A stretch of DNA of 25,236 nucleotides from a virus: positions 1 to 25,236 of IMG/VR virus record IMGVR_UViG_3300048836_000239, one strand, 5' to 3'. Every line of letters starts with the position of its first letter. The first letter of the stretch is position 1. Both the position numbers and the translations under genes were made by a program. A model generated the notes under the pieces. The model was not told where the DNA came from. It made no database searches and was given only the letters and a program-made list of their open reading frames with translations. Shown piece after piece: positions 403 to 19,912 of the stretch.

Positions 403-411
403 AGCGCCCCC

Positions 412-921
412 TTACAGCCCGATCGCGCCGCGCAAGGCGGCCATCTGATCCGTCCCGCCGACCACGCGGATCATCCGCTCGGCATCGATCTCGATCACCG
501 TCTGTCCGCCCACTTCGAGCTTGTAGGACCGGCAATTGACCGTGCACTCCATCTTCGCCTTGGCTCCCGCCTCCCAGGAGCCGCCGTTGAGCACGTGCAT
601 CTGCCCGCGCATGGTGACCTTGATCGGGGTCGCCTCCGCGCCGTCGTCGCCCATTGCCGCCCCGCGGAACACCAGCGGCACGCGCGAGCCGTCGACCAGG
701 CCCCACAGCTTGAGCACGTCGGCGCTGTACTCGTAGAGGGTGAACTTGGCATCGATCGCCTCGACCAAGCCCATGTCGAGCTTGATCTTGCCGGACATGC
801 CGCCGGCCGCGTACTCCTCCGTGACGACGCCGAGCTCGGGAAGCTCCACGTCGCATTTTCCCGCGTACCCCCTGCCGTCGATGAAGCAGGCATATGCCTT
901 GAGTACCGATGGGATCGCCAT
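412..921 (-). CDS. FII: Major tail tube protein, P2 FII family
   Basis: A 169-residue inner tube protein. It starts MAIPSVLKAYACFIDGRGYAG at an ATG with GGAG 7 nt upstream, has the family's ELPELGVVTEEYAAGGMSG and KLDMGLVEAIDAKFTLYEY, and ends KLEVGGQTVIEIDAERMIRV with a short tail. Length matches P2 FII (172). It follows the sheath and precedes gene E, as in P2. Confidence 0.95.
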   Translation of the reverse strand: MAIPSVLKAYACFIDGRGYAGKCDVELPELGVVTEEYAAGGMSGKIKLDMGLVEAIDAKFTLYEYSADVLKLWGLVDGSRVPLVFRGAAMGDDGAEATPIKVTMRGQMHVLNGGSWEAGAKAKMECTVNCRSYKLEVGGQTVIEIDAERMIRVVGGTDQMAALRGAIGL

Positions 922-1065
922 GTCATAACTCCGCTGGTTGTGCGCAATGAGGCCCCGGCAGCGCTGCCGGGGAAAGGGACATCCGCCGTGCCGGCATAGC
1001 CGCGCCCGTCGACACTTCAATGAGGCCGCCGCGTCCATGCCGCGGAAAGCTGCGCGCAAGCATGA
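922..1065. other. Gap between sheath and tube genes with a tube-like remnant
   Basis: A 144-nt stretch. On the minus strand, 1013-966 reads in one frame VDGRGYAGTADVPFPG, close to IDGRGYAGKCDVELPE in the N-terminus of the tube protein encoded just downstream, although the codons differ. There is a TGA two codons before it and no start, so it is at most a remnant of a duplicated tube gene. The tube ribosome site (GGAG) is at the left end. The reading frame of the tube is open through this region, but its real start has the better signal. Confidence 0.45.
953..972. repeat. Perfect 20-bp palindrome between sheath and tube genes
   Basis: CCCCGGCAGC followed directly by its reverse complement. 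It could form a stem in the mRNA between two genes that need very different expression levels, or be a protein site. There is no T tract on either side, so termination is unlikely to be efficient. Confidence 0.6.
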
Positions 1066-2571
1066 TTATGCCGCCTGAGAGAAAATCTCGACGAGGTAGT
1101 CGTTGACCAGGTGGCTCCTGAAGGTGATGTGCTCGGCCGGAGTTGGGGGGGTCATATCAAAGTCGAAGAACACCTTGCCTTGGGCGATCTGGTCCGGGGT
1201 GTTGAGCTCCGCATCCGCCCAGCAGCGCCCGCCGAGGAGGGCGCCGATCTTCACGAGGTGGCTGAGGTAGTTGTTGACGCCCTCCACGACATCCTCGATG
1301 TAAGTCTTTGTAATATTCCTGTCGACGGCCCAGAGGTGCGCGCGCAGCAGGCTCTCGTGCACCATGTCCGCGGTGCGGCGCACCGAGAGGAAGGCCCACT
1401 TCGGATCCGCCGAGCAGGAGCGGTTGCCCCACAGCCTGTAGCCGTCCTTGCGGATGATGGTCGCCACCTCGTTCTCGTTGAGGTAGTTCGCCCGGCTCAA
1501 GGCGTCGCCGAGCTCGAAGTCCACCGCGCGGGCGGTGCCGACGATGCCGCTCATCTCCCGGTTTGACGGGCTCCACCAGAAGCCGCGCTCGTTGTCGGAC
1601 TTGGCGATGATGCCGGCCACACGCGGCGATGCCGGGGCGATCGCCTCGGCGTTGGCGACGGTGTCCCAGACCTTCACCTGCGGGTCGACGATGTAGACAC
1701 GATCCGAGCCGAAGTTGCCGCGATAAGTGATGGCGGCAGCATCCGTGCTGTTGGGGCCGTCGGCGACGATGACCGCGCGCAGGCGCTCGGCGATGCCGAC
1801 CAGCTCCGACACGGCAGCTTGCTGATGCGTGAAGCCCGGGGCGATCAGGATCCGCGGCACCACGTGGCAGACCGATTCGGCATCCAGCAGCGCGTGCACC
1901 CCGGTGCGGTTGGCGCCGTTGCCGATGATGTTGGTCAGGGTGCCCTCGGGCGAGACCGCCTGCTCCACCCGCACCACCACCACCCAGGCGCCGGCCTGAT
2001 CCCAGATCGCATCGAGCGCGGCGGGCAGCGTGCCGGCCGCACCCAGCGCGGCGGCCTCGGTGCGGCGGGTGCACAGCACCGGGGTATTGAGCGGGAAGGC
2101 GTTGTCGGCGCCGCCGGACAGATAGGCCGGCTTGGACGTCCCGACGAGCAGACCCGGCGGGTCCTCGATGTCGTAGGCCGGCGTGACCGTGACCAGCGCG
2201 GCGGCCGCCGGCACGGCGGCCACGGCCGCGGCGATCTCCCCCGCGTTGGTGGTGGACACGCCGTCGGCGTCGCCGGCGAGCTGCACCGTAATGATCCGCT
2301 CGCGCACGCTCACGGCGAGGTCCGTGTCGTCGACGCTCGGGCGCTTGAAGTGCACGCCGACGGCATTGCCGGCGGCCCCGGCCGTCTTGGCCGTCCAGGT
2401 CAGGGCGGTGGTGTCGGCGATGTCGCCGGTCACCAGGACCGCCGCCGCCGCGCTCTGGCTGTTCGGCGCGGTGCCGACCAGGCCGATGACGGAGGAGCGC
2501 ACGGTCGTGATGGGGCGGGCGCCGTCGTCGATCTCGACGATCTCGACGCCGTGGAGGAATTGCTCGGGCAT
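1066..2571 (-). CDS. FI: Tail sheath protein, P2 FI family
   Basis: Contractile sheath protein of 501 residues. N-terminal PEQFLHGVEIVEIDDGARPIT and VIGLVGTAP, then an inserted beta domain (about 35-150, ALTWTAKTAGAAGNAVGVHF to AYLSGG), then the FI core: PVLCTRRTEAAALG, RILIAPGF, IVDPQVKVWDT, RGFWWSPSNREMSGIVG, RKDGYRLWGNRSC, the conserved YIEDVVEGVNNYL, and GKVFFDFDMTPPTPAE. P2 FI has about 396 residues, so the insertion explains the extra length. The ATG follows AAGGAG by 7 nt. The start chosen ignores a longer open frame upstream. Confidence 0.95.
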   Translation of the reverse strand: MPEQFLHGVEIVEIDDGARPITTVRSSVIGLVGTAPNSQSAAAAVLVTGDIADTTALTWTAKTAGAAGNAVGVHFKRPSVDDTDLAVSVRERIITVQLAGDADGVSTTNAGEIAAAVAAVPAAAALVTVTPAYDIEDPPGLLVGTSKPAYLSGGADNAFPLNTPVLCTRRTEAAALGAAGTLPAALDAIWDQAGAWVVVVRVEQAVSPEGTLTNIIGNGANRTGVHALLDAESVCHVVPRILIAPGFTHQQAAVSELVGIAERLRAVIVADGPNSTDAAAITYRGNFGSDRVYIVDPQVKVWDTVANAEAIAPASPRVAGIIAKSDNERGFWWSPSNREMSGIVGTARAVDFELGDALSRANYLNENEVATIIRKDGYRLWGNRSCSADPKWAFLSVRRTADMVHESLLRAHLWAVDRNITKTYIEDVVEGVNNYLSHLVKIGALLGGRCWADAELNTPDQIAQGKVFFDFDMTPPTPAEHITFRSHLVNDYLVEIFSQAA

Positions 2572-2582
2572 GGCAGGGCTCC

Positions 2583-3146
2583 TTAGAGGGACTGGATCAG
2601 GGTGGTTGCCGCGGTGACGACGGCGTCGATCGCGCTCTCGGTGGAGGCGGCATCGATGTCGCGCAGCGCCTTGGCGCGGGCGCCGTGGATTGCGGCATAG
2701 CGCGGGCGCCAGACGGCGACGAGATCCTCGATCTCGTCGATCAGGGTCGGGATCGTGATCGCGCGCGCGGTGGCCTCCGCATTGAGCAGCGGGAAGCCTC
2801 CCGGCTGCGGGTTGATACGCACCGTCCACTCCACGATCTCGGCGATCAGCGCGAAGAGGGTGACGGGCTCCAGATGCTGGCCCGCGGTCGCCGCGGCTTG
2901 GGCGGCTTGCGCCCGCTGCGCCACGATGGCCTTGGCGTGCGCGCGATGCGCCGCGAGGTTGTAGGCCGGCGGCACGTTCGAGAGGCTGCCGTCGAGCGCG
3001 AGCTTGGGATAGAGCATCCCGAGCGAGGCGGTCCAGACCGCCTCGGAGACCGCGACGGCACCGGGCGGGAGCGTGCTGTGGATGTCGTCGCGATAGCGTG
3101 CGATCACGAAGCGCGAGGCGTCGAGATCGAAGGCGTAGACGGTCAT
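2583..3146 (-). CDS. Probable tail-fibre assembly protein (187 aa)
   Basis: Starts MTVYAFDLDASRFVIARYRD at an ATG overlapping the fibre stop (ATGA). It has a short N-terminal domain, a Pro-rich segment, an Ala/Gln-rich helix and a C-terminal helical domain ending TAATTLIQSL. Its place directly after the fibre is that of P2 G, the fibre assembly gene, but sequence similarity is not clear to me. The stop TAA is part of the sheath ribosome site (TAAGGAG). Confidence 0.6.
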   Translation of the reverse strand: MTVYAFDLDASRFVIARYRDDIHSTLPPGAVAVSEAVWTASLGMLYPKLALDGSLSNVPPAYNLAAHRAHAKAIVAQRAQAAQAAATAGQHLEPVTLFALIAEIVEWTVRINPQPGGFPLLNAEATARAITIPTLIDEIEDLVAVWRPRYAAIHGARAKALRDIDAASTESAIDAVVTAATTLIQSL

Positions 3147-4291
3147 GCAATCCTCCCGATAGCGAGGATGAAGGGGGCGAAAGCGCCTGTCCAGACCGCG
3201 CCGCCGCTGGTAAATGCTCTGATTGAACAGCCAGCGGCGTCGGGCGCGGAGACGCCGAGGATGATGTCCGACGTCGCCAACATCCCCTGCTCGGTGGCCA
3301 ACACGCCGTACAGGTCGGTAAAGGCAAAGCTCCAGGTGACTCGGGTGTTGTTGTAGTAGCCGCCGGTGAACCGCAGCCATTGCAGATACACGTTATTCGG
3401 CGTCGACGGCGCCTCCGCAGTGGGGAGGGCGGGGAGCTTGAGCCACCCCCAGCGCAGATTTTCCGTCACGCCTGCGTAATGGGTCGGGCTGCGGTTGTAA
3501 ATGGCCGTGACGCTGGAGACCAGATCCCAAATGGCGTCGGCGGTGACCGCGGCATCGGTTTTGCCGTCGAGATTCGCCTGCGTCAGGCCATTGATGAGCT
3601 TGGCGATGCCGGGGGCGCCGGCCGTCGCGCTCGGCAGCCGCGCCGGATCCAGCGTGCCGCTGGTGATCGCCGAGGCGGCGTGCGTGTGGGCGCCGGCTGC
3701 CTTGCCGGCCAGCGCGGCCTCCAGGCCCGTGATCGCCGTCATCGGATGCTGGTCGGCGTTGGAGCGGTTGACCAAGGCCGCGTGATCGTTGGTGCCGCCG
3801 CCCCCGCCGCTGCCGATCAGGGCCTTGAGCTCGCGGATCTTGTCCGCGGTCACGGTCGCATCGATCTGCCCGTTGAGATCCGTATCGACCAGGCTGTTGA
3901 TCAGCTTGACCGCGCCCTTTGCCGACGAGGTGGCCGCCGGCAGGCGATCCGGATGAAACGTGTCGCCGGTAATCGCCCCGGCCAGATGCGTGTGGGCGCC
4001 GGCCGCTTTGCCGGCCAGCGCGGTCTCCAGGCCGGTAATCGCCGCGATCGGATGCTGGTCCGGACTGGAGCGGTTGTTGAGCGCAGCATGGTTGGTGGTG
4101 CCGCCCGACACGCCGTCGATCAGACCCTCGATCCGCGCGAGCTCGTTTTTCAGCCAGCGCGTGCGGTCCGCCAGATCCTTGATCGGCCGGTTGCTCGGCG
4201 CGGCATCCGGCCCGCCGAGGACCAGATCGCTGGTCTCGAGCTTGGTGACGGTGGCCGGAAAGCCGCTGCCGTCCTCGGTAATCGTTCCCAT
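3143..4291 (-). CDS. Tail fibre protein (P2 H position)
   Basis: A 382-residue fibre starting MGTITEDGSGFPATVTKLET at an ATG with GGAG 6 nt upstream. N-terminal attachment part (VLGGPDAAPSNRPIKDL, TRWLKNELARIEGLID), then two tandem ~102-residue repeats, each NHAALxNRSxxDQHPxxAI with TGLExALAGKAAGAHTH and a KLIN segment, then a C-terminal domain of about 120 residues (YLQWLRFTGGYYNNTRVTW onward) that would contact the receptor. It overlaps the next gene (ATGA). No variable region or lectin domain is visible. Confidence 0.85.
   Translation of the reverse strand: MGTITEDGSGFPATVTKLETSDLVLGGPDAAPSNRPIKDLADRTRWLKNELARIEGLIDGVSGGTTNHAALNNRSSPDQHPIAAITGLETALAGKAAGAHTHLAGAITGDTFHPDRLPAATSSAKGAVKLINSLVDTDLNGQIDATVTADKIRELKALIGSGGGGGTNDHAALVNRSNADQHPMTAITGLEAALAGKAAGAHTHAASAITSGTLDPARLPSATAGAPGIAKLINGLTQANLDGKTDAAVTADAIWDLVSSVTAIYNRSPTHYAGVTENLRWGWLKLPALPTAEAPSTPNNVYLQWLRFTGGYYNNTRVTWSFAFTDLYGVLATEQGMLATSDIILGVSAPDAAGCSIRAFTSGGAVWTGAFAPFILAIGRIA
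3681..4087. repeat. Direct repeats within the tail fibre gene
   Basis: Two ~100-nt segments (3681-3781 and 3987-4087), 306 nt apart, are closely similar in DNA and encode the AGAHTH...GLExALAGKAAG part of the two fibre repeats. The spacing is exactly 102 codons. This points to a fairly recent in-frame duplication. Confidence 0.75.
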
Positions 4292-4302
4292 AGAAGGCTC
4301 CG

Positions 4303-4944
4303 TCAGGAGGCGGTCAGGGTGCCGCCGTGGTAAAGGATCTGCCCGTCGTGCGCGTGCGTGCCGTCGTAGAACAGGTCGTAGGCGACGATGTAGCGCAGAT
4401 GCGAGCGGGCGTTCTTGTAGTAGTCGATGCGGCGCCGGATCTCGGCCTGCTCGCTCGGCGAGGGCACGGACCCGAGGCTCAGCAGCACGTCGAATTCGTA
4501 GGGGCCGAGACCGCTCGCGTAATCCAGGGAGCCGTCGTGCGGCGCCTCGCCGCGGTAGAAGGTGCCGCCGCCCTCGAGGATGCGCACCTGCACATACCCC
4601 ATCAGCTCGAGCGCGCGGCGCACTGCCCAGGGCGTGCCCTTGCGCGCATGCAGCAGCGCGGACTCGGCGACCAGCGCGCGGCGCGTCGGGTCGTCCCAAG
4701 CCGGGTTCCACTCGTCCACCGACAGCGTCCAGGCGAGCCACGGCAAGAGGCTCGACGGGCAGGTCTGCGGGCGCCACAGCTCGCGCAGCGGCACGCCGAC
4801 CGCGGCGATGCGCGCCGTGACGTCTTCGAGCGTCATCTCCTGCGGCGTGCAGTGCGACGGCAGCAGCCGTTCGCGCGCGCGCCCGTCCCAGGCATAGCCG
4901 CCGTCCCAGCGGACCCCGGCGCTGTCCCACGCGAGCGTGCTCAC
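4303..4944 (-). CDS. I: Tail protein I, P2 gpI family
   Basis: A 213-residue baseplate protein starting at a GTG that overlaps the previous stop. The gpI core is clear: ELWRPQTCPSSLLPWLAW, DEWNPAWDDPTRRALV, LHARKGTPWAVRRALELMG and the C-terminal ARSHLRYIVAYDLFYDG. It connects J to the fibre. The extended N-terminus (WDSAGVRWDGGYAWDGRAR) is additional to P2 I. The fibre gene follows after 11 nt, as in P2 (I then H). Confidence 0.92.
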   Translation of the reverse strand: MSTLAWDSAGVRWDGGYAWDGRARERLLPSHCTPQEMTLEDVTARIAAVGVPLRELWRPQTCPSSLLPWLAWTLSVDEWNPAWDDPTRRALVAESALLHARKGTPWAVRRALELMGYVQVRILEGGGTFYRGEAPHDGSLDYASGLGPYEFDVLLSLGSVPSPSEQAEIRRRIDYYKNARSHLRYIVAYDLFYDGTHAHDGQILYHGGTLTAS

Positions 4945-5546
4945 GGCCACACCTGCACGGCGCCGAGATGGATCGACGTGATCGGGGTGGATCCAAGCGA
5001 CACCCAAGCGATCGGCGTCGCGCCGAGCGTCAGCGGCAGCGCGGCGGATGCCCCGTGGTCGATGGACAGGCGCAGCGCATCGACATAGACGGTGGTCGTC
5101 GTCGCGGACGCCAGCATGATTTCCAGCGCGAAGGCGGCGGCGCGCAGATCCGCCAGGGTCGGCTGTGCAAAGACTGCATGGATCCACGGCCGATCGAGCG
5201 CGAGCGGCGGCGGATCGATCGGGGCGTCGAGCGCGAGCGTGTACCACGCCGACCATCCGGCCGCGCCGTAGTAGCGCGCCGACAGGGTCGCAAGATCGAC
5301 CGCCGTGCTGCGCGCCTGCAGCGCGATGCGCAGCGCTTGGAGCGTCGTGTCGGCGGGCAGCAGGGCGGCCAGCCCGAACGCCTCGGCGCGCAGCCCGTCG
5401 CTGCTGTAGCCGTCGAGGATGGTCACGGATGCCGACGACAGGTTGCGCTCGACGATGCGCGACGGATTGGACCAGGCATTGCCGTACGGTGCCGGGTGCG
5501 CGTAGCCCGCCGAGCCCTGCCCCGGACTGACGTTGAGCGTCGGCAT
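4941..5546 (-). CDS. Tail protein of unknown function, beta-rich (201 aa)
   Basis: Starts MPTLNVSPGQG at an ATG joined to the preceding stop (TGATG); the stop overlaps the next start (GTGA). It has a SSASVTILDGYSSDGLRAEAFGL opening and a beta-rich body with WSAWYTLALDAPID and TTTVYVDALRLSIDHG, the kind of pattern seen in jelly-roll carbohydrate-binding modules. It ends in SLGSTPITSIHLGAVQVW. I do not recognise the family; a virion receptor-binding or fibre-tip role is possible. Confidence 0.6.
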   Translation of the reverse strand: MPTLNVSPGQGSAGYAHPAPYGNAWSNPSRIVERNLSSASVTILDGYSSDGLRAEAFGLAALLPADTTLQALRIALQARSTAVDLATLSARYYGAAGWSAWYTLALDAPIDPPPLALDRPWIHAVFAQPTLADLRAAAFALEIMLASATTTTVYVDALRLSIDHGASAALPLTLGATPIAWVSLGSTPITSIHLGAVQVWP

Positions 5547-6187
5547 CAGCCGATCCCCAGATAGAGCACGTTGGCCGCCGGCGAAGCCGGCAGCGCCGTC
5601 ACCACGGCGATCGTCAGGCCCGCGACCGTGTTGTGGGCATGGAGGCCGAGCTTGGCATCCAGCGCGGCCTGGGTGGCCGTGCTGATCGGTTTGGACGCAT
5701 CGGCCGTGTTGTCGGCGTTGTTGAGGCCGACATCGGCTTTGACCAGCGTCACCGCACCGGTCTTGCCGGCCACCGAGGACACCGGAGCCGTCGAGTCCGC
5801 GGCCGTGACGGTCACGACCCCGTCGACCGCCGACAAGGTGATGTTGTTGCCGGCGACCAAGCCCTTGACCGGCACCTCCGCGGCGATCGTGCGGGCGGTG
5901 CCCGATGGCGTGATCGTGATGTTGTCGCCCGCGACCAGCGACTTCACCGGCACGTCCGCGGCGATCGTGCGGGCGCTCTCGTCGGCCGTGACCGTCACGT
6001 TCGCGCCCGCGACCAGGCTCTGGATCGGCGCCAGGGCGGGCACGTCCGCGAAGGTCGGGCGCTGTCCGAGCGCCGTGTCGAGCGTGGTCAGCGCCTCGGC
6101 GATGTGCCCGAAGTTCGCCCGCAAGGGGGCGCTGGTCAGCTCCGCGCCTTGCCCCGGCACACTGACGTCGATATCGCGGATCGCCAT
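5546..6187 (-). CDS. Tail-fibre-like protein with VAGxNIT repeats
   Basis: A 213-residue protein with three tandem repeats of about 26 residues, each starting S/G-LVAG-x-N (LVAGANVTVTADESARTIAA, LVAGDNITITPSGTARTIAA, LVAGNNITLSAVDGVVTVTA), a beta-helix or trimeric shaft pattern. Then SSVAGKTGAVTLVKADVGLNN, the recurrent fibre motif, and a C-terminal LPASPAANVLYLGIG. It lies between J and I, a place where fibre genes are often added. Likely a shaft-type fibre. Confidence 0.72.
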   Translation of the reverse strand: MAIRDIDVSVPGQGAELTSAPLRANFGHIAEALTTLDTALGQRPTFADVPALAPIQSLVAGANVTVTADESARTIAADVPVKSLVAGDNITITPSGTARTIAAEVPVKGLVAGNNITLSAVDGVVTVTAADSTAPVSSVAGKTGAVTLVKADVGLNNADNTADASKPISTATQAALDAKLGLHAHNTVAGLTIAVVTALPASPAANVLYLGIG

Positions 6188-7107: not shown

Positions 7108-7550
7108 GCGGCCAACCTCCGGCGGGTGCCGGACGTCGTGATTCGCGTCGTGCCGCTGGCCGTGCGCCGCGCCCGCACGGGTGCCACGGTCGGCACGGCG
7201 ACGCGCGCGGCAGGTCCGATCAGAATACCCTCCAGACGCAGCGCCCCGCCGTCGGCACGCCAGATCAGGTCGAGATCCAGCGCGATCCGGCCGACCTCCA
7301 CCAGACGCACGGCCACGCGCTGCACGGCCACCCGCGGCTCCCAGCGCCCGATCGCCCCGGCGGTGGCCTGGATGATGTCGAGCACGGTCACGCCGTCGAG
7401 CGGAGCGTCCACCAGATCCGGCAGCGCGCTGCCGTACTCGCGGCGCATCACTCGGCTGCCGAGCGGGGTCGCAAGGATGTCGGCGATCGACTGACGCAGA
7501 TGTGCCAGCACATCCAGTTTCCGGCCGGTGACGGCGCTCATGCCGCTCAT
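7104..7550 (-). CDS. W: Baseplate protein W (gp25-like)
   Basis: A 148-residue protein of the GPW/gp25 family: HLRQSIADILATPLGSRV, REYGSALPDLVD and the later ALDLDLIWRADGGALRLEG. It belongs to the baseplate wedge that contacts the sheath. The ATG at 7550 overlaps the V stop (ATGA); an ATG three codons further is possible. The end is extended by an Arg/Thr-rich tail not seen in P2 W. Confidence 0.92.
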   Translation of the reverse strand: MSGMSAVTGRKLDVLAHLRQSIADILATPLGSRVMRREYGSALPDLVDAPLDGVTVLDIIQATAGAIGRWEPRVAVQRVAVRLVEVGRIALDLDLIWRADGGALRLEGILIGPAARVAVPTVAPVRARRTASGTTRITTSGTRRRLAA

Positions 7551-8107
7551 TCGGGCAGCCCCGACGTGCCGGAGCCCGGCTCGACGTTGGTATGCCGGTG
7601 CGTCTTCAGGCTCACGCCGTCGGCGATCACGTCGCCCTGCACCGTGATATTGCCGCCGGAGGCATTGATGGTGATCCCGCCCTCGGCGTTGATCGTCAGC
7701 CCCCCGTCGGCGACCAGGTTGACGGTGGCGCCGGAGGGCAGGACGGCGCTCAAGCGGTGCGCCGCGCGATCGTAGTCGATCACCGCGCCGTCGGCGTAGG
7801 TCGTGCGGGCGACGGTGGCCGCATTGGCGGGCGCCGCGTTGGCGGTGCTGTAGATCGCCCCGAGCACGATGCCGCCGGCCGGATCCCCGTCCGGGCAGAG
7901 CACCGAGACCTGCTCGCCCACCTCCGGCGCGCTCCAGGTGCGATCCCCGCCCGCCCGGACACTGAGCCACGGCAGCCAGGCCGTGACGAGCGCGCCGAGC
8001 GTCACGCGCACGCGCGCCTTGGCATAGTCCGCCTCGGCCACGGTGCCGATCTGCACCAGATTGGCCCGGCTGCGCTCCAGCTCGGCGGTGTCGCGGGTGG
8101 CGCTCAC
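7547..8107 (-). CDS. V: Baseplate assembly protein V (spike)
   Basis: A 186-residue protein starting at a GTG overlapping the hydrolase stop (GTGA). It is the P2 gpV-type spike: an OB fold (AKARVRVTLGALVTAWLPW, APEVGEQVSVLCPDGDPAGGIVLGAIYS), then a triple-stranded beta-helix of short repeats (GGLTINAEGGITINASGGNITV), and an apex with THRHT, the His-x-His that binds iron at the tip of such spikes. It punctures the outer membrane. The next gene overlaps its stop, in the P2 order V-W-J-I. Confidence 0.93.
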   Translation of the reverse strand: MSATRDTAELERSRANLVQIGTVAEADYAKARVRVTLGALVTAWLPWLSVRAGGDRTWSAPEVGEQVSVLCPDGDPAGGIVLGAIYSTANAAPANAATVARTTYADGAVIDYDRAAHRLSAVLPSGATVNLVADGGLTINAEGGITINASGGNITVQGDVIADGVSLKTHRHTNVEPGSGTSGLPE

Positions 8108-9924
8108 GCGTCGACCGTCAGCGATCCGATCGTGCACCAGCGCGAGCCGTCCGCGTCGGTCGTGCAGCTCGCCGGATCCAGGCTCGGGGAGACGACCGGC
8201 ACCGGCGTGACGACGCCCGACTTGGGCGCGATGCCGAAGCGCACCGTGTAGGTGCCGGCCGGCAGCTGGATGCCCCGCCGCGCCGCGATGGCCTCCTGCC
8301 CCTGCTCGAGGCGCGACAGATCGGCGCCGAGGGCCAGCGTGGTCGGAGCGCCGACGCTCGGGACGAAGCGAATCGCCGGCGCGTAAAGATAGCTGAACAG
8401 GCGATGCGGCCCGGCGTTGCGAATGCTCACGCGCACCGACCAGCTCTCGCCGGCACTCGGCGCGCTCGGCAGCAGGACCGATGCCGGGTAGAGCCGATAC
8501 CCGACCGCGGCATTGAACGCCTGGATGCGCGGCACCGCGGCGGCGAAGGTGGTCCCGAGATTGATGTACTTGGCGTTGAACATGCTCCCGCGGGGACCCG
8601 GGGTCACCTCGCCGTTCGGCCACGGCCAGGCCGAGACCGTACTGCCGAACCAGTCGAGCGAGGCCGACAGCGCCGTGGGGTTGGCAAAGGCCCCCGCCGG
8701 CTCGCCGTTGATCGGCCCGTAGCGCCAGCAGTCGCCGAGCTCCGGGAAATCACGCAGCGCCCGATTGATCTGCCATGCGGTATTGATCGCCGCGTCCGGC
8801 GCGTCCATCCCGTCGGTGCGCCAGGCGGCCATCTGCCCGCCGAAGCCCTCGTTGCGCGCCCGCGCGCACACCGCGCGCCAGCCGTCGAAATTCAGCGGGT
8901 TGGTGCGGTCGTTCACCGAGAAGGCTTGCGCGCTGTCCAGCGTGGCGGCCTGAAAGTTGGCCAGCAGCGGGATGGTGTCCGGCACCTTCCACCACTCGTC
9001 CAGGAGCGCGGTGAAGGTTTCGGTATTGGGCGTCGGCAGCCGAGTCGTCCCGTCCGCGTGCAAGCGCGTGTTGTGGGTGTGCATCTCGCCCCAATCGCCC
9101 CAGCCGCCGGTATCGATGTAGGCGATCCAGGGCGTGTTCGCCGGGGTCAGGATCTGGGTGCGGAACCACGCGATCAGGGCCGTGTAGCGCTCGCGAAAGG
9201 TCTGCCCGGAGCCCGGCGGCTCGTTGTAGTTGGGCATCCACATCGGCGCGCACACCGCCCCGTCGCTGTTGAGCCACTTATCCTGTCCGGCGTGGTAGGC
9301 GCAGCCGCCCTTCAGGAAACGCGCCCGGTAGTAGGCGCAGTTGCCGTCCGGCCCCCCGCCGGCACGCCCGAGATAGGCCGGACCCGACCCGATCGAGGTG
9401 CACTCCCCCCGCGCCGTGCCCGCCGTGATAAACCACTCGGGCACGCCGCGCGGGGTGCCGCTCGGCGGATTCTCCTGAGGCATGTAGGCAATCAACCGGA
9501 AGCCGATCATGTCCCCGGCCGCCTTCGCCGAATCAATCAACGCTTGGACCGCGGCGGTTTGATAGACCCCGTCCTGCGTCTCGAGCTGGCTCCACGGGAT
9601 CCGATACTCCCGGATCGCCGCATGGGGCAACTGCGATTGCGCGGCGGCGTTGGTGGTGATCGAGTCCACGCGCGAGCCGTTGGCCCACCAGGGCCCCGAA
9701 TTCCACCCGCCCGGCACCACGAGGCCGCGTTTGGCGGTTTCGAGCGCCCCGGTGTAGAGCGTCGGAGACAGCGTGGCGCAGGCCGCCAGGCCACAGCCGG
9801 TCTGACCGCTTTGCGCGCGCGGATTCTGCGGCGTCGGCGGTGCCGCGGTCGCGCTCGCGCCGATCAGGATGCCGAGCGCGAGAGCGGCCGCGCGGCGCGT
9901 CGGGGTCATCGGGGTCAAGGTCAT
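8104..9924 (-). CDS. Secreted glycoside-hydrolase-like protein (GH42-like TIM barrel, DUF4832-like)
   Basis: A 606-residue protein that begins with a Sec signal peptide: TRR, then hydrophobic AAALALGILIGASATA and an AxA cleavage site near residue 28. The body looks like a TIM-barrel glycosidase: RIPWSQLETQDGVYQ, GFRLIAYMPQ, NYNEPP in the place of the family's WNDP segment, and GGWGDWGEMHTHN, where the WGE glutamate is the best catalytic candidate. The C-terminal domain (GESWSVRVSIRNAGPHRLF onward) is the beta-sandwich typical of DUF4832-type proteins. It has many cysteines, as in exported proteins. It could degrade a surface polysaccharide. A signal peptide on a gene inside a tail operon is odd. 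Family level is from memory; the substrate is unknown. Confidence 0.7.
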   Translation of the reverse strand: MTLTPMTPTRRAAALALGILIGASATAAPPTPQNPRAQSGQTGCGLAACATLSPTLYTGALETAKRGLVVPGGWNSGPWWANGSRVDSITTNAAAQSQLPHAAIREYRIPWSQLETQDGVYQTAAVQALIDSAKAAGDMIGFRLIAYMPQENPPSGTPRGVPEWFITAGTARGECTSIGSGPAYLGRAGGGPDGNCAYYRARFLKGGCAYHAGQDKWLNSDGAVCAPMWMPNYNEPPGSGQTFRERYTALIAWFRTQILTPANTPWIAYIDTGGWGDWGEMHTHNTRLHADGTTRLPTPNTETFTALLDEWWKVPDTIPLLANFQAATLDSAQAFSVNDRTNPLNFDGWRAVCARARNEGFGGQMAAWRTDGMDAPDAAINTAWQINRALRDFPELGDCWRYGPINGEPAGAFANPTALSASLDWFGSTVSAWPWPNGEVTPGPRGSMFNAKYINLGTTFAAAVPRIQAFNAAVGYRLYPASVLLPSAPSAGESWSVRVSIRNAGPHRLFSYLYAPAIRFVPSVGAPTTLALGADLSRLEQGQEAIAARRGIQLPAGTYTVRFGIAPKSGVVTPVPVVSPSLDPASCTTDADGSRWCTIGSLTVDA

Positions 9925-11228
9925 CAGACGATCCTCGTGATCAACACGGCGGGGAGATTGTCGGCCGCACTCGACGCGGTCCAGGTGAGCGTGGCGAAGT
10001 CCGCCGGGAGGCTGGTTTGCCCGGCGCAGCGCAGGCTGCGCACGTACGTGAAATTGCCGTCTTCGTCGGCCGGCGCGAGCACGCCGAAGGTGTCGGCCGC
10101 CGCGGCCAGGGTCACGGCGCTCACCGTCGGCGCGCCGCCGCTCGCGAGCACGACCGCCCAGTAGCGGCGACCCGGCAGCAGCGTCACGGCGCCCGGGTCA
10201 CCCATCCGGGTTTTTGCCGAGGTCACGCCCGAGCCGGTGACGGCCGCCCCGAGCCGCGCGCCGGGGCGGCCCGCGGCATCGGCCGCGAGCGCGAAGGCGA
10301 GCGTGGCGCCGGCCGCCCCGGTGGTGACGCGCATCATCAGTTGGTCCACCGGCAGCGTCGCAGTGACGGTGAAGGGGTGGGCGTTGACCTCGCCATCCGC
10401 GAGCACGCGCGAGCCCAGGCCGTTCGCGCCGACCATCCCGGCCACGACGGAGTTGACCCGCGCAACACCGTCGATCGGGATCGACCCGCCCGGACCGTGC
10501 GCCGCCGCGTGCGCGGCCGCATCGAGCAGGCGCGGATCATCCGGCGTCACCCACAGTGCCGGGAGCGTGACCAGATCGACGACCACGGTCGCACTCGGCG
10601 CCGAGACCGACCGCCCGGTCGGCTCCATCGCGTCCCAGGCGTAGGCCAGCGTGCGCACCTCCCAGATCGAGCCGACCGCGCAATCGATCGCGTCCAGATC
10701 CACCGCCGTGACGGCGCCGACGTCGACCCGTCGCCAGGTCGCTGCCCCCGCCGCGCGCGACTCCACGTAATAGCCGTCGGCCCCGGCGGAGGCATCCCAG
10801 GCGAATTGGGTCGGCAGCTCACCGCCGACCCCGTCGAAATAGGCCACGATCGCGTCGCGGTCCGCCTTGGCGGTCCACAGGCGCGGCTCCACGGAGAGAC
10901 CGGCCGTGGCCTCCACGGAGGTCACCGTCGGCGGCAGCACGACGGGCTCCGTCGGCGGCACGGGGACGTTGAGCAGGAGGCGCGCGTCCAGCCCCGCCGG
11001 CAGCCCCGGAACCGGGTCGCCCTCGGGGTCGGTCTGCACGTCGACGACCGGGATCACGTTGCCGATGGCGGTCCCGAGCGTGTAGGGCGCGATCGCCGCG
11101 CGCAGTTGCGCCACGGTCGCACGCGCCGAGCTGCCGAGGGCGGTCTCGACCTCGAGCAGGTCCGCCTCCGCGGGCGGCGCGCCGAGCGCGGCGAGATCGG
11201 AGATTTTCTGATAGATCGGCTCAGCCAA
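9924..11228 (-). CDS. Tail-fibre / host-interaction protein (434 aa)
   Basis: Starts at a TTG with AGGAG 8 nt upstream, overlapping the preceding stop; the frame is open further upstream, but that part is an out-of-frame shadow. Order: LAEPIYQKISDLAALG with a helical stem, a Pro/Thr/Val-rich linker (about 80-100), a fibronectin-III-like domain around 125-210 (WDASAGADGYYVESRAAG, WEVRTLAYAWDAM), and a C-terminal beta domain with MMRVTTGAAGATLAF and RYWAVVLASGG. It is probably a fibre with receptor-facing domains. Its stop overlaps the hydrolase start (TGATG). Confidence 0.65.
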   Translation of the reverse strand: MAEPIYQKISDLAALGAPPAEADLLEVETALGSSARATVAQLRAAIAPYTLGTAIGNVIPVVDVQTDPEGDPVPGLPAGLDARLLLNVPVPPTEPVVLPPTVTSVEATAGLSVEPRLWTAKADRDAIVAYFDGVGGELPTQFAWDASAGADGYYVESRAAGAATWRRVDVGAVTAVDLDAIDCAVGSIWEVRTLAYAWDAMEPTGRSVSAPSATVVVDLVTLPALWVTPDDPRLLDAAAHAAAHGPGGSIPIDGVARVNSVVAGMVGANGLGSRVLADGEVNAHPFTVTATLPVDQLMMRVTTGAAGATLAFALAADAAGRPGARLGAAVTGSGVTSAKTRMGDPGAVTLLPGRRYWAVVLASGGAPTVSAVTLAAAADTFGVLAPADEDGNFTYVRSLRCAGQTSLPADFATLTWTASSAADNLPAVLITRIV

Positions 11229-11577
11229 GTGAGAGACTCCTGATGGATCCGTCGGCGCTCGTGCGCACCCCGGACGCCGTTGCGCGCAGCCGCGCGGCCA
11301 CGGCCCCGCCCCAATACCAGGCCACCCGGCCGGCGCTGTCCGGCACGCCGTAGAGCGTGCCCGCATCGGGCGCCGAGGGCAGCGCGTCGAGAATCGCGAG
11401 GCGGATCCCGCCGGCATGCTCGGGCGCCACCATCGCCGCCTCCGCGACGGCATCCGCGGCGATCCCGACGGCAAGCGCTCCGTCGAGCAGGTACGGCTCG
11501 CCCGCGGCGCAGTGTCCCGCCGCCGCTGCCGCGGCGGCTTGCGCACGGGTGCCGCGCTTGATGCGGATCGCCGCCAT
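11221..11577 (-). CDS. Small tail-fibre-like protein (118 aa)
   Basis: Opens AIRIKRGTRAQAAAAAAAGH, then GEPYLLDG, the same attachment-type motif as the neighbour gene, so the two are probably diverged paralogous pieces. The C-terminal half contains PDAGTLYGVPDSAGRVAWYWGG. No good ribosome site is visible before the ATG. Its stop lies within the start of the next gene (TTGGCTGA). Confidence 0.6.
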   Translation of the reverse strand: MAAIRIKRGTRAQAAAAAAAGHCAAGEPYLLDGALAVGIAADAVAEAAMVAPEHAGGIRLAILDALPSAPDAGTLYGVPDSAGRVAWYWGGAVAARLRATASGVRTSADGSIRSLSLG

Positions 11578-13288: not shown

Positions 13289-13822
13289 CTAGAGCGTCGC
13301 GGCCACCAGGAAGAGTGCGGCCGCCTGCTCCTCGGTCATACCGAGCGCCGCGACGAACGCCTGCAACACCGGGTCGCGGTATTTCCACACCTGCGCATCC
13401 TCCACGAAGACGCGCTGCTCCGGGGTCAGCGTCGGCAACAACGACGCGATCAACGCCTCGTATTGCGCCCACAGCCCGGCCTGGATGAGTGCGAGCTTGC
13501 CTTGCAAGCGGGTGCACTCGAGGCCGTCGAGATACGCCTCATGCGTCGCTGCCTCGTGTGCCTCGATCGCGGCTTGGCGCGCTTCGGGCGTCCCGGCCGG
13601 CTCCCGGTAGTAATGCGCCCCCTGCGCATCCTCGGCGAGCTGCCACGGACCGTAGCCCAGCGGCGCCGGACCGGCCGCGGTGATGTGCCGCAACACGCCG
13701 AGCGCGGAGAGCCGATGGATATCCTCGCGCCGGATCAGCGGCGCCACGGGGTGGCGCAGACCACCGGCGAGGATGTGGGCCGGTGGCGAGGCGTGGGTCT
13801 CGGACATCAGATACTCGGGCAT
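13289..13822 (-). CDS. Hypothetical protein after the RT, possible fibre-associated factor
   Basis: A 177-residue protein. The ATG at 13822 has GAAGG 7 nt upstream and overlaps the RT end by 16 nt; an ATG at 13807 is the alternative. The N-terminal part has IHRLSALGVLRHI and GPWQLAEDAQGAHYY, the middle is helical, and the end (YRDPVLQAFVAALGMTEEQ followed by AAALFLVAATL) looks like the C-terminal helical tail often seen in proteins of phage tail loci. Its place behind a target gene would suit an assembly chaperone, but the family is not recognised. Confidence 0.7.
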   Translation of the reverse strand: MPEYLMSETHASPPAHILAGGLRHPVAPLIRREDIHRLSALGVLRHITAAGPAPLGYGPWQLAEDAQGAHYYREPAGTPEARQAAIEAHEAATHEAYLDGLECTRLQGKLALIQAGLWAQYEALIASLLPTLTPEQRVFVEDAQVWKYRDPVLQAFVAALGMTEEQAAALFLVAATL

Positions 13823-14685
13823 GAGCGCACCTTCGTAAGCGCGGCGTTGAGCGTGATGCCGTAGTGCACGGCATGTCGCGCCAGTCGTTGCCGCTGGCGC
13901 CAGCCGTCGGTATGACGCAGCAGGCCCAGATAACTGTTCAGGGTTTGGCGCGGATTCGATGCGCCGCGCGCGATCTTGCGCAGGGCGTGCGCGACGCTGC
14001 GGCGCCGCAGATACCGGGCGTGCGGGCGCACGACATAGCCGACAAAATCCACACCCAATTCGGCACGCTGGATCGATGTCTTGCGCGGATGAAACCGCAC
14101 ATTCAGGCGATCCTGCGCGAATTGCTCGAGCTGCATGGCCGCGTCATGCAGCACGCTGCCGTTCGGGCCGATCGCGACCAGGTCGTCGACGTACCGCACA
14201 GAGTGACGCAACCCCAGGTCGCGCTCGGCATAGCGGTCGAGCGGGTCCAGGTAGACGTTGGCGAAGAACTGCGAGGTCAAGTTGCCGATCGGTAGCCCGC
14301 TGCCGCCCGCATTGAACAGGCTTTTGTGAGGCGGAATACGGCGCATCAGCTCCCGGGAGCTGCGCACATGCACGTTGCGAGTCGGGTCGTGATGGAGCAG
14401 CGTCCTGGCGAGATGCAGCGTGTAGGCGTCGTCGATCCGCGCGGCGAGGAGGCCATCCAACACGCCTTTGTCGATGCTCACGAAGAAGTTGGCGACATCC
14501 ATTTTGAGCGCCCATTGCGGCACGGACCAATTGCGGGTCGCGCTGCGCAGGTGGCGCTCCAGGCGCTCGACGGCGTACAGCGTTCCCCGCCCCGGAATGC
14601 AGGCGCAACTCCCGGCGCTGAACGCCCGGTAGAACCGCGCTGAGATTCGGTTGTACAGCAGGTGATGAAGCCGCCTCCGTGACCT
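13807..14685 (-). pseudogene. 5'-truncated DGR-type reverse transcriptase
   Basis: The frame is open from 14685 (after a TGA) for 292 residues. It begins within the reverse transcriptase fold at LHHLLYNRISARFYRAF, equivalent to the segment about 80-90 residues into the Bordetella phage enzyme. Present: motif A KMDVANFFVSID (Asp 63), the DGR-specific IGNLTSQ (133-139), the catalytic YVDD (165-168), and the thumb-side FVGYVV. Absent: the N-terminal fingers with motifs 0-2. No ATG or GTG precedes the GTG at 14523, so the only good start would also lose more of the domain. The avd start lies upstream in another frame. I read this as an inactivated gene made by a deletion; the surviving core is otherwise uninterrupted, so the event may be recent. 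Confidence 0.85.
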
Positions 14686-14740
14686 TCAGCAAGAGGTCGT
14701 AAGTGGCTTTATAGATCGGCAGATGCCGGTATTGCGCCAT
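14672..14740 (-). pseudogene. Remnant of avd, DGR accessory protein (first ~23 codons)
   Basis: The ATG at 14740 starts MAQYRHLPIYKATYDLLLKV, the characteristic opening of Avd four-helix-bundle proteins, which are normally about 110-130 residues long and bind the retroelement RT. After about residue 23 the similarity ends and the frame runs into antisense-like Arg-rich nonsense overlapping the reverse transcriptase in another frame. The rest of avd is therefore missing, most simply through a deletion whose right end lies near 14670. It follows the target gene by 33 nt, the normal place for avd. Confidence 0.75.
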
Positions 14741-14773
14741 AACAATGAGGCTGCCTGAGAAAGGATTAAAGAA

Positions 14774-15772
14774 TTAAAGGATTGATCGCCGCACGGCCCT
14801 GACCCGGGAGGTGAGCGTCTTGGCGTAGTTGTACTGGATCCCCGGATAGGACGTGTTGTAGTACTGGCCCCACGCGTCCGTGGCCGAATACTCGGAGCTG
14901 CTCCAAAACCGAATCTCCCACGGCGGCGCTTGCGCGCCGCCGGTCTGGAACAGGGCCAGCGCCGTTCGCGCAGGATCGGCGGCCGTATAGGCACCGCCGG
15001 CCGGGATGGAATGCCGATTCAGTCCGCGGCCCTCGCTCGCGATGTCGTCGGTGTTGGCGTCGCGGATGTAGCTGTTGGACTTCGGACGCGTCGCAACAAA
15101 GTTATCGAGCGTCACCGGCTTGAGGTGCCGCCACAGCAATTCGAGCCAGTCGCGGGCGGGAAGCTCCCAATCCGTATACCCGGAGAGGGCTGCGGCGTTT
15201 ACGCCCCGGATAAAATCTGCAGCCGGATAGATCACAGATCCCGCTGCTGTATTGGCCGCGATCATCGCCGCCGTTGCCGCGCGACCATTCGTCAGCGTCT
15301 TGCACTCGATGGGAGCGGCTGTATCCGCCGTTTTGTACGCCATGTTGACGGTCGACTCGCCGCCAGACTTCGGCGCGAGGATGACTTTCCAGCGCGCGGC
15401 GATCACCCAATCGGAGAACACGCCCGAGCCGGTGATGCCGGTGACCGCGATCTGCAGGCCGCGCGGCGTGCGCGTGCGGACGTGCCCGTCGATGAACGCC
15501 TGCGTCGTGTTCACGGCTGGGGCGATGCGCACGGATTGCCCGAGATAGAAGGGATGCAGCCCCTCCGGCAGAGCCAGCCACACCGTGCTGCCCGGGGCGA
15601 CCATCGAGAGATCGAGCGCGCCCGCGCCGGACGTGACGGTATCCCACGCCGCGCCCATGTAGTACCCGCCATCCAGGGCGTCGCCGATCGCGGGAGCGGG
15701 GGCCGGGCGCGGGACCAGCAGCGTCGCCGCACGCATCCCGGCCTCGAACATCAGTTGATGGAAACGGCTCAT
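14774..15772 (-). CDS. DGR target protein with C-terminal Lcl/DUF1566 C-type-lectin-like domain
   Basis: A 332-residue protein whose C-terminal ~135 residues form an Lcl (DUF1566) type lectin-like domain: GYTDWELPARDWLELLW around 198-215, and FWSSSEYSATDAWGQYY from residue 289, ending SRVRAVRRSIL. That last stretch is the classic variable-region form of retroelement targets: aromatic and Asn/Tyr/Ser codons mostly ending in C, then an invariant RVRAV end. The N-terminal part (GYYMGAAWDTV, WLALPEGLHPFYLGQSVRI) should attach it to the virion. It lies immediately before avd/RT sequences, as in known systems. Probably a receptor-binding protein. It is intact although the retroelement behind it is broken. 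Confidence 0.88.
   Translation of the reverse strand: MSRFHQLMFEAGMRAATLLVPRPAPAPAIGDALDGGYYMGAAWDTVTSGAGALDLSMVAPGSTVWLALPEGLHPFYLGQSVRIAPAVNTTQAFIDGHVRTRTPRGLQIAVTGITGSGVFSDWVIAARWKVILAPKSGGESTVNMAYKTADTAAPIECKTLTNGRAATAAMIAANTAAGSVIYPAADFIRGVNAAALSGYTDWELPARDWLELLWRHLKPVTLDNFVATRPKSNSYIRDANTDDIASEGRGLNRHSIPAGGAYTAADPARTALALFQTGGAQAPPWEIRFWSSSEYSATDAWGQYYNTSYPGIQYNYAKTLTSRVRAVRRSIL
14785..14908 (-). other. Putative DGR variable region (VR) at the 3' end of the target gene
   Basis: Covers target codons from FWSSSEY to about RAVRR. Variable-looking codons are TAC, AAC, TCC, ATC and TAT, consistent with origin from AAC-type codons by adenine mutagenesis. The GC-rich end encoding SRVRAVRR would be the site where homing initiates. 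Boundaries are approximate because no template repeat is available for comparison. Confidence 0.65.
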
Positions 15773-16167
15773 GCCGGCAGGCTCGCCTGGATCGCGCTGT
15801 AGGCGATGCCGGACGCGCCCCAGCTGCGCAGCGTCACGGTGACGGGGTCATCCCCGGCCTCGAGCGCGATCGTGTCGAGCGGCCCGAGGCACAGCCACGT
15901 TGAGGGGATCGACAACGCGAACGGTCCGCCCGATGTCGGCGGGAGGATGTCCAGCGAGGCCCAATACACCAGCGCCGACGCATCGCCGCCCGACGGCAGC
16001 GGCGCGGACCAGCCCGCGGCGACATCCGCGCTCAGCGTCAGCCGGTACGCGCTGCCGTCGAGCGGGGTGGCGATGGCGCCGGACACGATGGCGAGGGTCG
16101 AGACACGCGTCTCGCCGCCTCCGCCTGCCGCGGCGGCGCCGTACAGCGCAATGGATTTGATGCTCAT
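15769..16167 (-). CDS. Hypothetical phage protein upstream of the diversified protein (132 aa)
   Basis: Starts MSIKSIALYG at an ATG overlapping the preceding stop. It has a Gly-rich early loop and a beta-rich body with YWASLDILPP and DTIALEAGDDPVTVTLRSWG, and looks like a small virion or fibre-associated protein. The stop overlaps the start of the diversified target (ATGA). Family unknown; the link to the target rests on the coupling alone. Confidence 0.7.
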   Translation of the reverse strand: MSIKSIALYGAAAAGGGGETRVSTLAIVSGAIATPLDGSAYRLTLSADVAAGWSAPLPSGGDASALVYWASLDILPPTSGGPFALSIPSTWLCLGPLDTIALEAGDDPVTVTLRSWGASGIAYSAIQASLPA

Positions 16168-17226: not shown

Positions 17227-18285
17227 TTAGAGCACGTCCGCCGAGACGAACGCATCCGGCTGATGCAGCGCCGGCAGCGGGCTGGCGTGCACCGCCACGT
17301 AGCGCTGCGACGGCTCCTCGACCTCCCAGGTCTTCACCCAACGCTGGGTGACGGGCATGGGGCATTTCAGATCGCTGATCGGGCCGTAGTGCACCCGGTT
17401 TTGGGCATTGCGGCTGCCGAGCACGACCCGATCCGCCGGGGTGTAGAGCGTGGCGGTGCCGGTCTGGTCCGCCTGGAAGGTGCGCAGGTCCTCGTAGATG
17501 TCGATCCCGGCGATCCGGCCGATGTAGTTCACACCCTCCACGGACATCTCGGACAGATTGATCTGCCCGACCTCCGTGCGGCGGTTGTCCAGCAGCGCGC
17601 GGATCTTGGCATGGTTGAGCAGCGCGGCCGCCACCGCGCTGCCGACGGTGCCGACGGTGGCGGACATGCCGGAGCTTTGTGCGATGAGGTTGCACCAGGC
17701 GCGCAGATTGGCGATGGGGTCGGAGTCGGCGTGGGTCCACTTTTCGGTCGCGTTGGCGAGCGTCACCAGATGCGCGACCGGCATGCCCCAGTCCACCTCG
17801 GCGTCGATGCCCATCGTCGCGCCGGTCTCGTCGAGCGACACCAGCGGGGTCTTGCCGGTGATCACGCCCTGCGCGGCCATGAACTCCATGCGCCGCCAGA
17901 TCATGTCGTCCAGGTCCTCGATGTCCCGGCCGATCTGGCGCTGGGCGGCGGCCACCAGGTCGCGATCGCTGTACAGATGCGCGCCCATCTCCCGGCGCTG
18001 GAGGATCTCCTCGGCGTTGGTCGGGCGGCCGGGCTTCATGTACGGGAGCCGGATCAGCTTCTCCGCGCCCGCCTCGCGCGCGACCAGCTTGGAGGCATCG
18101 GTCGGGCGCTGGATCGGGGCCAGCTTCTGGCCGCCGATCAGCACGTCCAGCTGCACCAGGCGGGCGCCGTGCGTCTCGGCCCCGGCGCGGTAGTAGGTGT
18201 CGAGATACCAGTTGTACGGGCGCTTGCGGATCTCGATCATCCGCGCCAGGCTGCGCGGCTCGAAGGCGGTAGTGGCGATGGTCAT
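17227..18285 (-). CDS. Major capsid protein, lambda gpE-like family
   Basis: Main shell protein, HK97 fold of the phage capsid E family. The 352-residue length is right for the family. Recognisable parts are the N-terminal RKRPYNWYLDTYY, the loop KPGRPTNAEEIL, DRDLVAAAQRQIGRDIEDLDDMIWRRME split over residues 110-140, and the C-terminal LPALHQPDAFVSADVL with the aspartate-phenylalanine ending seen in gpE. It follows gene D with coupled translation (TGAGGA). Pairing of lambda-type D and E behind a Mu-type protease is a mosaic feature. Confidence 0.93.
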   Translation of the reverse strand: MTIATTAFEPRSLARMIEIRKRPYNWYLDTYYRAGAETHGARLVQLDVLIGGQKLAPIQRPTDASKLVAREAGAEKLIRLPYMKPGRPTNAEEILQRREMGAHLYSDRDLVAAAQRQIGRDIEDLDDMIWRRMEFMAAQGVITGKTPLVSLDETGATMGIDAEVDWGMPVAHLVTLANATEKWTHADSDPIANLRAWCNLIAQSSGMSATVGTVGSAVAAALLNHAKIRALLDNRRTEVGQINLSEMSVEGVNYIGRIAGIDIYEDLRTFQADQTGTATLYTPADRVVLGSRNAQNRVHYGPISDLKCPMPVTQRWVKTWEVEEPSQRYVAVHASPLPALHQPDAFVSADVL

Positions 18286-18296
18286 GGATCAGGTCC

Positions 18297-18932
18297 TCAG
18301 CGCACGAAGATGTTGCGGGCGTCGAGCTGCGCCACGGCGGCCGCGTCGAGTCCGGTGAGTTTGGCCCGGCGGAACACGCCGGTGCGGTAGGCCACGGCTT
18401 TGACGGCCGCCGCACCCACGGCGACGGTATCCGCCAGGATCAGCGCGGCCGCCTGCGAGCCATCCACGGCCGCGGCGCTGTAGGCTTTCGCCTCCCCCGA
18501 GCCGGCCGCGACGGTGACGGTAATCACGTCGCCGATGTCCCAATCGTTCGCGCCGTCCGGGACCGTCAGGTTGATGTGGTCGGAGACATAGGCGGCGGCG
18601 ACCGTCAACGGCTGGAGCATCTGCCCGGTCGGGGTCTGGACGCTGAAGGTCCCGGCGCCGGACGCCTCGGCCGTGCACACCAGGCGGTACACACCCGGCT
18701 GGGCATACTTGCCGAGCGTCACGGCCGCGGCGGCGACGTCGCCGTCGCCCGTGCCGGAGACCTTCGCGGCCGTCGCCGCGCCGACCGTCACCAGCCCGAG
18801 CACGGTGCCGCGGGCCAGCGTGGCGGCCGAGGCGATCGCCAGGGTGATCACTTGGGAGAGGAGCGGGAAGCCCTCGCCGAGGATGTCGTCGACCGGGATG
18901 GCGACGCTGTTTTGGCCGTAATCTTCGGACAT
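18297..18932 (-). CDS. Head decoration protein, lambda gpD-like family
   Basis: Trimeric cement protein that stabilises the expanded capsid. The 211-residue sequence starts MSEDYGQNSVAIPVDDILGE and continues with the small hydrophobic segment ARGTVLGLVT typical of the decoration family; it sits directly between protease and capsid. At about twice the size of lambda D, it has an inserted middle domain (roughly residues 60-150, with GTFSVQTPTG and DIGDVITVTV), as in many longer members. It ends ...LDARNIFVR, a family-typical C-terminus. The start follows a TGAGGA ribosome site that also contains the stop of gene I. Confidence 0.88.
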   Translation of the reverse strand: MSEDYGQNSVAIPVDDILGEGFPLLSQVITLAIASAATLARGTVLGLVTVGAATAAKVSGTGDGDVAAAAVTLGKYAQPGVYRLVCTAEASGAGTFSVQTPTGQMLQPLTVAAAYVSDHINLTVPDGANDWDIGDVITVTVAAGSGEAKAYSAAAVDGSQAAALILADTVAVGAAAVKAVAYRTGVFRRAKLTGLDAAAVAQLDARNIFVR

Positions 18933-18943
18933 GGGTCAGATCC

Positions 18944-19417
18944 TCACGCGGATGCGGTGTCGAGCGGCGGCAGACCCGCCATGGTCCGGGCGGCGGCTTC
19001 GATGCGCGCGGCCTCGGGGTCGTGTCCGGCGGCGGCGGCGAACTCGCCGTAGGGCACGCGCACCGGCAGGGTCGGCAGCCAGGCGCGCAGCCACTCGGCG
19101 GCGCCGCGCGGGGTCGGCGCGCCGGTCTCGACGGGCGCGGCGAAATCGGCCGCGGGCTCCGCGGGCGCGGTCGCCAGCAGCGCGACCAGCGGCGCCTGCT
19201 CGATCGGCAGCAGCCGGCCCTCGGCCACCAAGCCGCCGACAAAGCTCGCGATCTCGGAGCGACGCAGCGCCTCGGCCTGGGCCGCGGCGGCGCGCTCGCG
19301 CTCGGCGATGGCTGCCTCGCGGGCTGCAAGGTCGGTTTGCAGGGCGGTTAGGGCCGCTTCACGGGCGGCGAAATCGGCGGTCGGATCCGCGGCGGGCGCG
19401 GCGACTGGATCGGGCAT
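18944..19417 (-). CDS. Nested scaffold protein, Mu Z-like (internal in-frame start)
   Basis: An in-frame ATG at 19417, exactly where the protease domain ends and the scaffold-like region begins, is preceded at 6-7 nt by GGAG. Initiation there would give a 157-residue protein beginning MPDPVAAP and consisting of the Pro/Ala linker, the Ala/Glu/Arg coiled coil and the C-terminal helices. Mu gene Z within I and lambda Nu3 within C are the established precedents. The start and the ribosome site are seen; use of the start is inferred. Confidence 0.6.
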   Translation of the reverse strand: MPDPVAAPAADPTADFAAREAALTALQTDLAAREAAIAERERAAAAQAEALRRSEIASFVGGLVAEGRLLPIEQAPLVALLATAPAEPAADFAAPVETGAPTPRGAAEWLRAWLPTLPVRVPYGEFAAAAGHDPEAARIEAAARTMAGLPPLDTASA

Positions 19418-19912
19418 CGTAGGCTCCGGGTCGGTGGCGGAGGCGTCCGCCGGGGATGAGAAATCGAGCGGGTCGGCTTGGATCGTCACCAGGTCGCCGT
19501 CGTCCGCGGCCAGGCTGACCGGGGCCAGCCCCAGCACGGCCGGGACCGCAGCGCCGAGAAAACCCACATGCCGCAGGGACCAGACACCCGGCACCGGGTT
19601 GGCCGGATGGGTCGGGGGCCAGAATGAGGCGGACACTTTCGCGTAGCGCCGGGCACGCACGGCCTCGGCGAACTCCGCGGCCACGTCGCGCGGGGCGGCG
19701 CGAAGGTCCTCGCCTTCGGCCGCCAGACCGGACACCCAGCCCCAGGCCGGGCCGTTGTCGGCCGGATGGCCGACGACGAGCGGCGCTTCGTGCCGTGCGG
19801 GATCGTAGGCCGCGGCGGTCGCGGCCAGATCGGCGGGCGTCAGCGTCACGCATTGCCCGGCCATGGCCTGATACGTGCCGGCCCTGAAGATATGCAGAAG
19901 GGGGGTGCTCAT
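18944..19912 (-). CDS. Prohead protease, Mu gpI-like, with C-terminal scaffold region
   Basis: Head-maturation protease. The 322-residue protein has an N-terminal protease domain (about residues 1-145) with AYDPARHEAPLVVGH, the likely serine of KVSASFWP, and the likely histidine of SLRHVGFLG, then an acidic linker, then a coiled-coil scaffold segment rich in Ala, Glu and Arg (AAREAALTALQTDLAARE and onwards), and a C-terminal helical end. In Mu the same gene encodes protease I and, from an internal start, scaffold Z; the same arrangement appears here. I prefer the ATG at 19912, 8 nt after an AGGA site, to the ATG at 19921, which abuts that site. The stop lies inside the ribosome site of gene D (TGAGGA). 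Confidence 0.92.
   Translation of the reverse strand: MSTPLLHIFRAGTYQAMAGQCVTLTPADLAATAAAYDPARHEAPLVVGHPADNGPAWGWVSGLAAEGEDLRAAPRDVAAEFAEAVRARRYAKVSASFWPPTHPANPVPGVWSLRHVGFLGAAVPAVLGLAPVSLAADDGDLVTIQADPLDFSSPADASATDPEPTMPDPVAAPAADPTADFAAREAALTALQTDLAAREAAIAERERAAAAQAEALRRSEIASFVGGLVAEGRLLPIEQAPLVALLATAPAEPAADFAAPVETGAPTPRGAAEWLRAWLPTLPVRVPYGEFAAAAGHDPEAARIEAAARTMAGLPPLDTASA

Follow-up and report, generated by a model that had tools for sequence, protein, structure and literature searches.

In the reconstituted diversity-generating retroelement (DGR) of BPP-1 the loss of bRT, Avd or the template repeat (TR) each lowers retrohoming/repair to about 1e-9, and in E. coli the components of this element also act when the target is carried by a separate plasmid (PMC12875486). 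Inactivated DGRs are already known: elements in which the reverse transcriptase (RT) is truncated by a nonsense mutation, an insertion element or a frameshift have been described in DiGReF (PMC3521204, Figure 4), and the novelty of the case presented here is modest. It concerns a DGR locus in a stretch of 25,236 bp, referred to as the window, which corresponds to positions 1 to 25,236 of the IMG/VR virus record IMGVR_UViG_3300048836_000239. This record is a virus contig that, judged by the ~49 kb record of a sister phage (L159), covers about half of the phage genome. The minus strand of the window carries Mu-like structural genes (Mu portal PF06074, Mu F PF04233, capsid E PF03864, tail sheath PF04984). 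Amid the tail genes a 606-aa protein with a signal-peptide-like N-terminus but no Pfam match is encoded (window 8104–9924).

Like a BPP-1-type DGR, the locus contains a target gene ending in a variable repeat (VR), the start of avd and an RT core in canonical order on one strand, with the motifs IGNLTSQ and YVDD and with adenine-directed differences in the VR. Unlike a BPP-1-type DGR, avd is cut after 23 codons, the TR is absent and the RT lacks ~81 N-terminal residues (Table 1). What characterizes a functional element, namely a complete RT of the DGR clade, the accessory protein Avd and a TR close to the RT that departs from the VR at adenines, is represented here by a DGR-type RT core, by 23 of about 120 avd codons and by no TR in the window. 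With the inactivated elements of DiGReF (PMC3521204) the locus shares an RT truncated by mutation, however these keep VR and TR intact, whereas the deletion in the window would have taken avd and the TR as well. Comparison with its relatives makes it very probable that the locus is an ordinary VR-avd-TR-RT DGR of a Mu-like phage, which had served for the rapid mutation of a surface-type protein of this phage and was disabled by one deletion of ~0.78 kb, with loss of retrohoming in cis.

Table 1. Features of the DGR locus in the window and of the DGR of the sister phage L159.
Feature	Position	Strand	Evidence
DGR RT remnant, core and C-terminus, without the first ~81 residues	13807..14670	minus	RVT_1 2e-10; PHROG 1423 reverse transcriptase 3e-70
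Longest ORF in the RT frame with any start codon (GTG at 14523), 238 aa, begins just before motif A	13807..14523	minus	
Spurious 198-aa ORF, 23 Avd residues and then RT sequence read in the wrong frame	14144..14740	minus	no convincing family match
Putative deletion junction, position accurate to about ±6 nt	14670..14671	minus	spacing 64 nt vs 840 nt (L106) and 843 nt (L127)
avd remnant, first 23 codons	14671..14740	minus	19 of 21 residues identical to L106 Avd
VR, ends in conserved CGGGTCAGGGCCGTGCGGC	14788..14884	minus	aligned to L106 TR 5649–5745 and VR 4992–5114
DGR target gene, intact, 332 aa, C-terminal Lcl_C/DUF1566-like	14774..15772	minus	ORF; PF07603 9e-7, below the curated cut-off
L159 DGR, target VR	17914–18035 (L159)		
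L159 DGR, avd	18088–18489 (L159)		bAvd 9e-12
L159 DGR, TR	18512–18633 (L159)		
L159 DGR, RT	18753–19772 (L159)		

Behind the target gene an ORF on the minus strand starts at position 14740 and opens with MAQYRHLPIYKATYDLLLKVTEA. The intact Avd of a related locus, L106, to which its first 21 residues were compared, begins with MAQYQHLPIYKTTYDLLLKVT and belongs to bAvd (PF22296, E 7e-14; NF033474 4e-14, below the cut-off of that model). An initial reading made from the sequence alone (the sequence-only reading) had described the first ~23 residues as Avd-like and had placed the start of the adjacent RT frame 80–90 residues into the enzyme. Both descriptions hold; the RT resumes at residue 82 in L106 numbering (VHHLLYN). 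It had also noted that neither gene is complete and that the two frames do not match; indeed avd remnant and RT are in different frames and join out of frame.

Relatives of the window RT, ~50% identical to it from query residue 4 on, are encoded at about 155 loci on viral and cellular contigs. Nearly all of them align from this residue (window ~14676), and in nearly all close relatives the RT frame reaches at least 95 codons further upstream. The remaining core appears undamaged, as had been proposed: the open frame spans 14685 to 13810 with 292 codons and no stop, GC by codon position is of the coding type (0.67/0.46/0.81) and the motifs DVANFF, IGNLTSQ and YVDD are kept. In a tree the window RT forms a long branch of its own (1.25 changes/site), situated between two groups. 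It deviates at 14 of 91 columns that are ≥97% conserved in the main group, a number that falls to 3 of 60 when deep neighbours must also agree; given the long lone branch, these counts neither date the deletion nor demonstrate decay of the RT. That the deletion is recent, as the sequence-only reading had suggested, is no more than plausible.

The size of the missing segment was estimated from the spacing between the two genes. An avd could be recognized in 124 relatives, and its start lies 827–915 nt (median 866) away from RT residue 4. In the window the same two points are 64 nt apart, a difference beyond chance. L106 (Rhodocyclaceae MAG STC_64) and L127 (Comamonas MAG) are the nearest intact DGRs and served as reference for the deletion. 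They resemble the window in their homologous target VR, Avd and RT, arranged in the same order, but are complete, with a 120-aa Avd, a TR, a full RT and the wider spacing given in Table 1. Both match the window on either side of the junction, with order and orientation conserved, and imply a deletion of ~776 bp (L106) or 779 bp (L127). The sequence-only reading had predicted a gap of 0.5–1 kb at about 14670–14685, and the single deletion it proposed, running from avd through the TR into the 5’ end of the RT, is thus well supported.

Taking L106 as a model, the lost segment would comprise avd residues 24–120, the whole TR, the spacer and RT residues 1–81, including a stretch HPKVREVWAADFRDR that we take to be RT motif 1 (fingers). 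Counted from RT residue 4, most relatives have the TR at about -345 to -235 and the end of the VR at about -900, and the two repeats differ almost only at TR adenines; in L106 the TR lies at -356 to -254. With these positions the missing segment would correspond exactly to the 3’ part of avd, the TR and the 5’ part of the RT. Most relatives have a TR, whereas neither a TR nor a TR-like copy of the VR was found in the 25 kb of the window. When degenerate patterns derived from the VR were used to look for the lost TR, only the target gene of another phage (L157) was retrieved. The TR scan also picked up a 75-bp imperfect direct repeat (window 3681–3755 and 3987–4061) inside a tail-fibre-like gene with phage tail repeats (PF12789); it was rejected as a TR/VR pair with only 2 of 8 mismatches at A.

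We propose that one deletion of ~0.78 kb fused avd codon 23 to about RT codon 82 and would thereby have taken the Avd protein, the adenine-bearing TR, the cDNA-priming spacer and RT motif 1. Mutagenic retrohoming, which requires Avd, the TR and a complete RT, would then be impossible from this locus. The target would retain its intact frame and the VR sequence that was written last. Since bRT, Avd and TR are each needed in BPP-1 and all of them are missing or incomplete here, the element should be inactive in cis, and it is almost certainly dead. We infer the single event, the loss of activity and the fixed target, and the comparison with L106 and L127 does not separate one event from two.

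The target gene itself carries the traces of earlier activity. A search with the target protein yielded one related locus only, L157 (4364–5857), whose homologous target is 71% identical at the amino acid level and also shows adenine-type VR differences; in the 0.5 kb following this target neither avd nor RT is present. The targets of L106 and L127 are homologous as well. The L157 phage has a capsid of another family (PF13252) than the window phage and is unrelated to it; the target is thus common to unrelated phages. Between the two target genes 89 sites differ over 637 aligned bases. Within the VR, as delimited by alignment with the L106 template repeat, there are 19 differences, 17 of which fall on adenine sites of this independent, intact template (Fisher p = 8e-9). 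The changes are distributed over first, second and third codon positions as 9/9/1 inside the VR, that is on first and second positions, and as 13/10/47 outside, mostly on third positions. Adenine-directed differences together with the shift in codon position are the signature of a DGR, which indicates that the target was genuinely diversified in the past. This signature would have been written before the loss or, if the target is served from elsewhere, would still be supplied in trans.

The latter reading, with TR, Avd and RT encoded on the other half of the phage, by the host or by a co-infecting phage and the local remnant being redundant, has several points in its favour. In E. coli, DGR components do work on a target supplied by another plasmid (PMC12875486), the VR of L157 shows adenine-type changes with neither avd nor RT within 0.5 kb behind the target, and, measured against the ~49 kb sister record, the window represents about half of the genome. 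However, that 49 kb record of L159 contains a single RT, at this very site, the window holds no second RT-like or TR-like element, and the TR adjoins avd and RT in nearly all relatives. We therefore judge diversification in trans to be unlikely. That the target is frozen in one receptor specificity, as the sequence-only reading had suggested, is plausible, judged from a window that covers about half of the phage.

The sister phage is informative for the history of the site. L159 is ~90% identical to the window over reverse-complement positions 1–5614 and 81% identical over 7195–9080, and the two phages are collinear on both sides of the DGR slot. The slot itself (window reverse-complement 9080–11481, i.e. 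window 13756–16157) is occupied in L159 by a different, intact DGR (L159 16268–19820), in which 9 of 11 mismatches between TR and VR are located at adenine and whose RT is only 29% identical to that of the window. The slot thus holds unrelated cassettes in related phages, which points to exchange of whole cassettes.

These collinear surroundings also bear on the question whether the short arrangement was produced by the assembler, which would have collapsed or skipped an avd-TR-RT segment that is real in the phage. Assemblers are known to have difficulties with TR/VR repeats, the window is an IMG/VR contig judged from assembled sequence alone, and the exact junction sequence had no copy in other viral contigs in a search that may not cover records near the window. 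On the other hand, what the junction links is coding sequence of avd and RT and not a TR with a VR, and no common stretch is evident at this place in the aligned flanks of L106, L127 and L023. In addition the window contains no N letters, the flanks of the slot match L159 as described, and the same kind of loss is present in isolate genomes (see below). An artefact is consequently very unlikely.

Among 174 RT loci, which include some duplicate records and only such loci as keep an RT core, the N-terminal RT profile is nearly complete in 172; the remaining two, L114 and L126, have only its last part. Both have other breakpoints than the window and belong to other branches, and relatives sharing the short arrangement, which would have spoken against the deletion, were thus not found in this set. 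L114 (5231–6882) is from the isolate genome of Comamonas terrae NBRC 106524 and carries an Lcl_C-like target ending at 5872 that is directly followed by the 5’-truncated RT. L126 is from an isolate genome of Pseudomonas guariconensis; in neither locus were avd and TR detected. L114 resembles the window in its Lcl_C-like target directly before a 5’-truncated RT and in the absence of the TR, and it lacks avd as well. Its RT is cut less far in and belongs to a different branch, so that its loss is probably an event independent of that in the window. In a further locus, L148 (5791–6521, Paraburkholderia MAG), avd and TR/VR are present and the RT contains an internal, frame-changing deletion.

Long open RT cores in three remnants (window, L114, L126), in the window without stop or frameshift, and the few deviations at the ≥97% conserved main-group columns in L126 (0) and L114 (2) could suggest selection for a role other than retrohoming, but the search finds only loci retaining an RT core and is biased in this respect, the first start codon in the window lies just before motif A with motif 1 lost, and the deviations counted for the window RT may even reflect slight decay, making such a role most improbable.

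With the deletion as the preferred explanation, the different contents of the slot may be arranged into a cycle: loss of avd, TR and the front of the RT leaves a fixed target, an unrelated intact cassette later replaces the remnant, and sister phages would switch back and forth between a diversifying and a fixed state. We regard this turnover as a tentative and rather doubtful idea. If it were true, the dead loci of the window and of L114 and the different, apparently intact cassette that L159 has in the slot would be snapshots of the cycle.

The event by itself will not surprise a DGR specialist. The locus nevertheless provides a clean case of a phage that drops targeted hypermutation and keeps the diversified target. 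Together with the intact relatives, the sister phage carrying another cassette and the other losses, it could be used to ask how often and when phages abandon DGR diversification.
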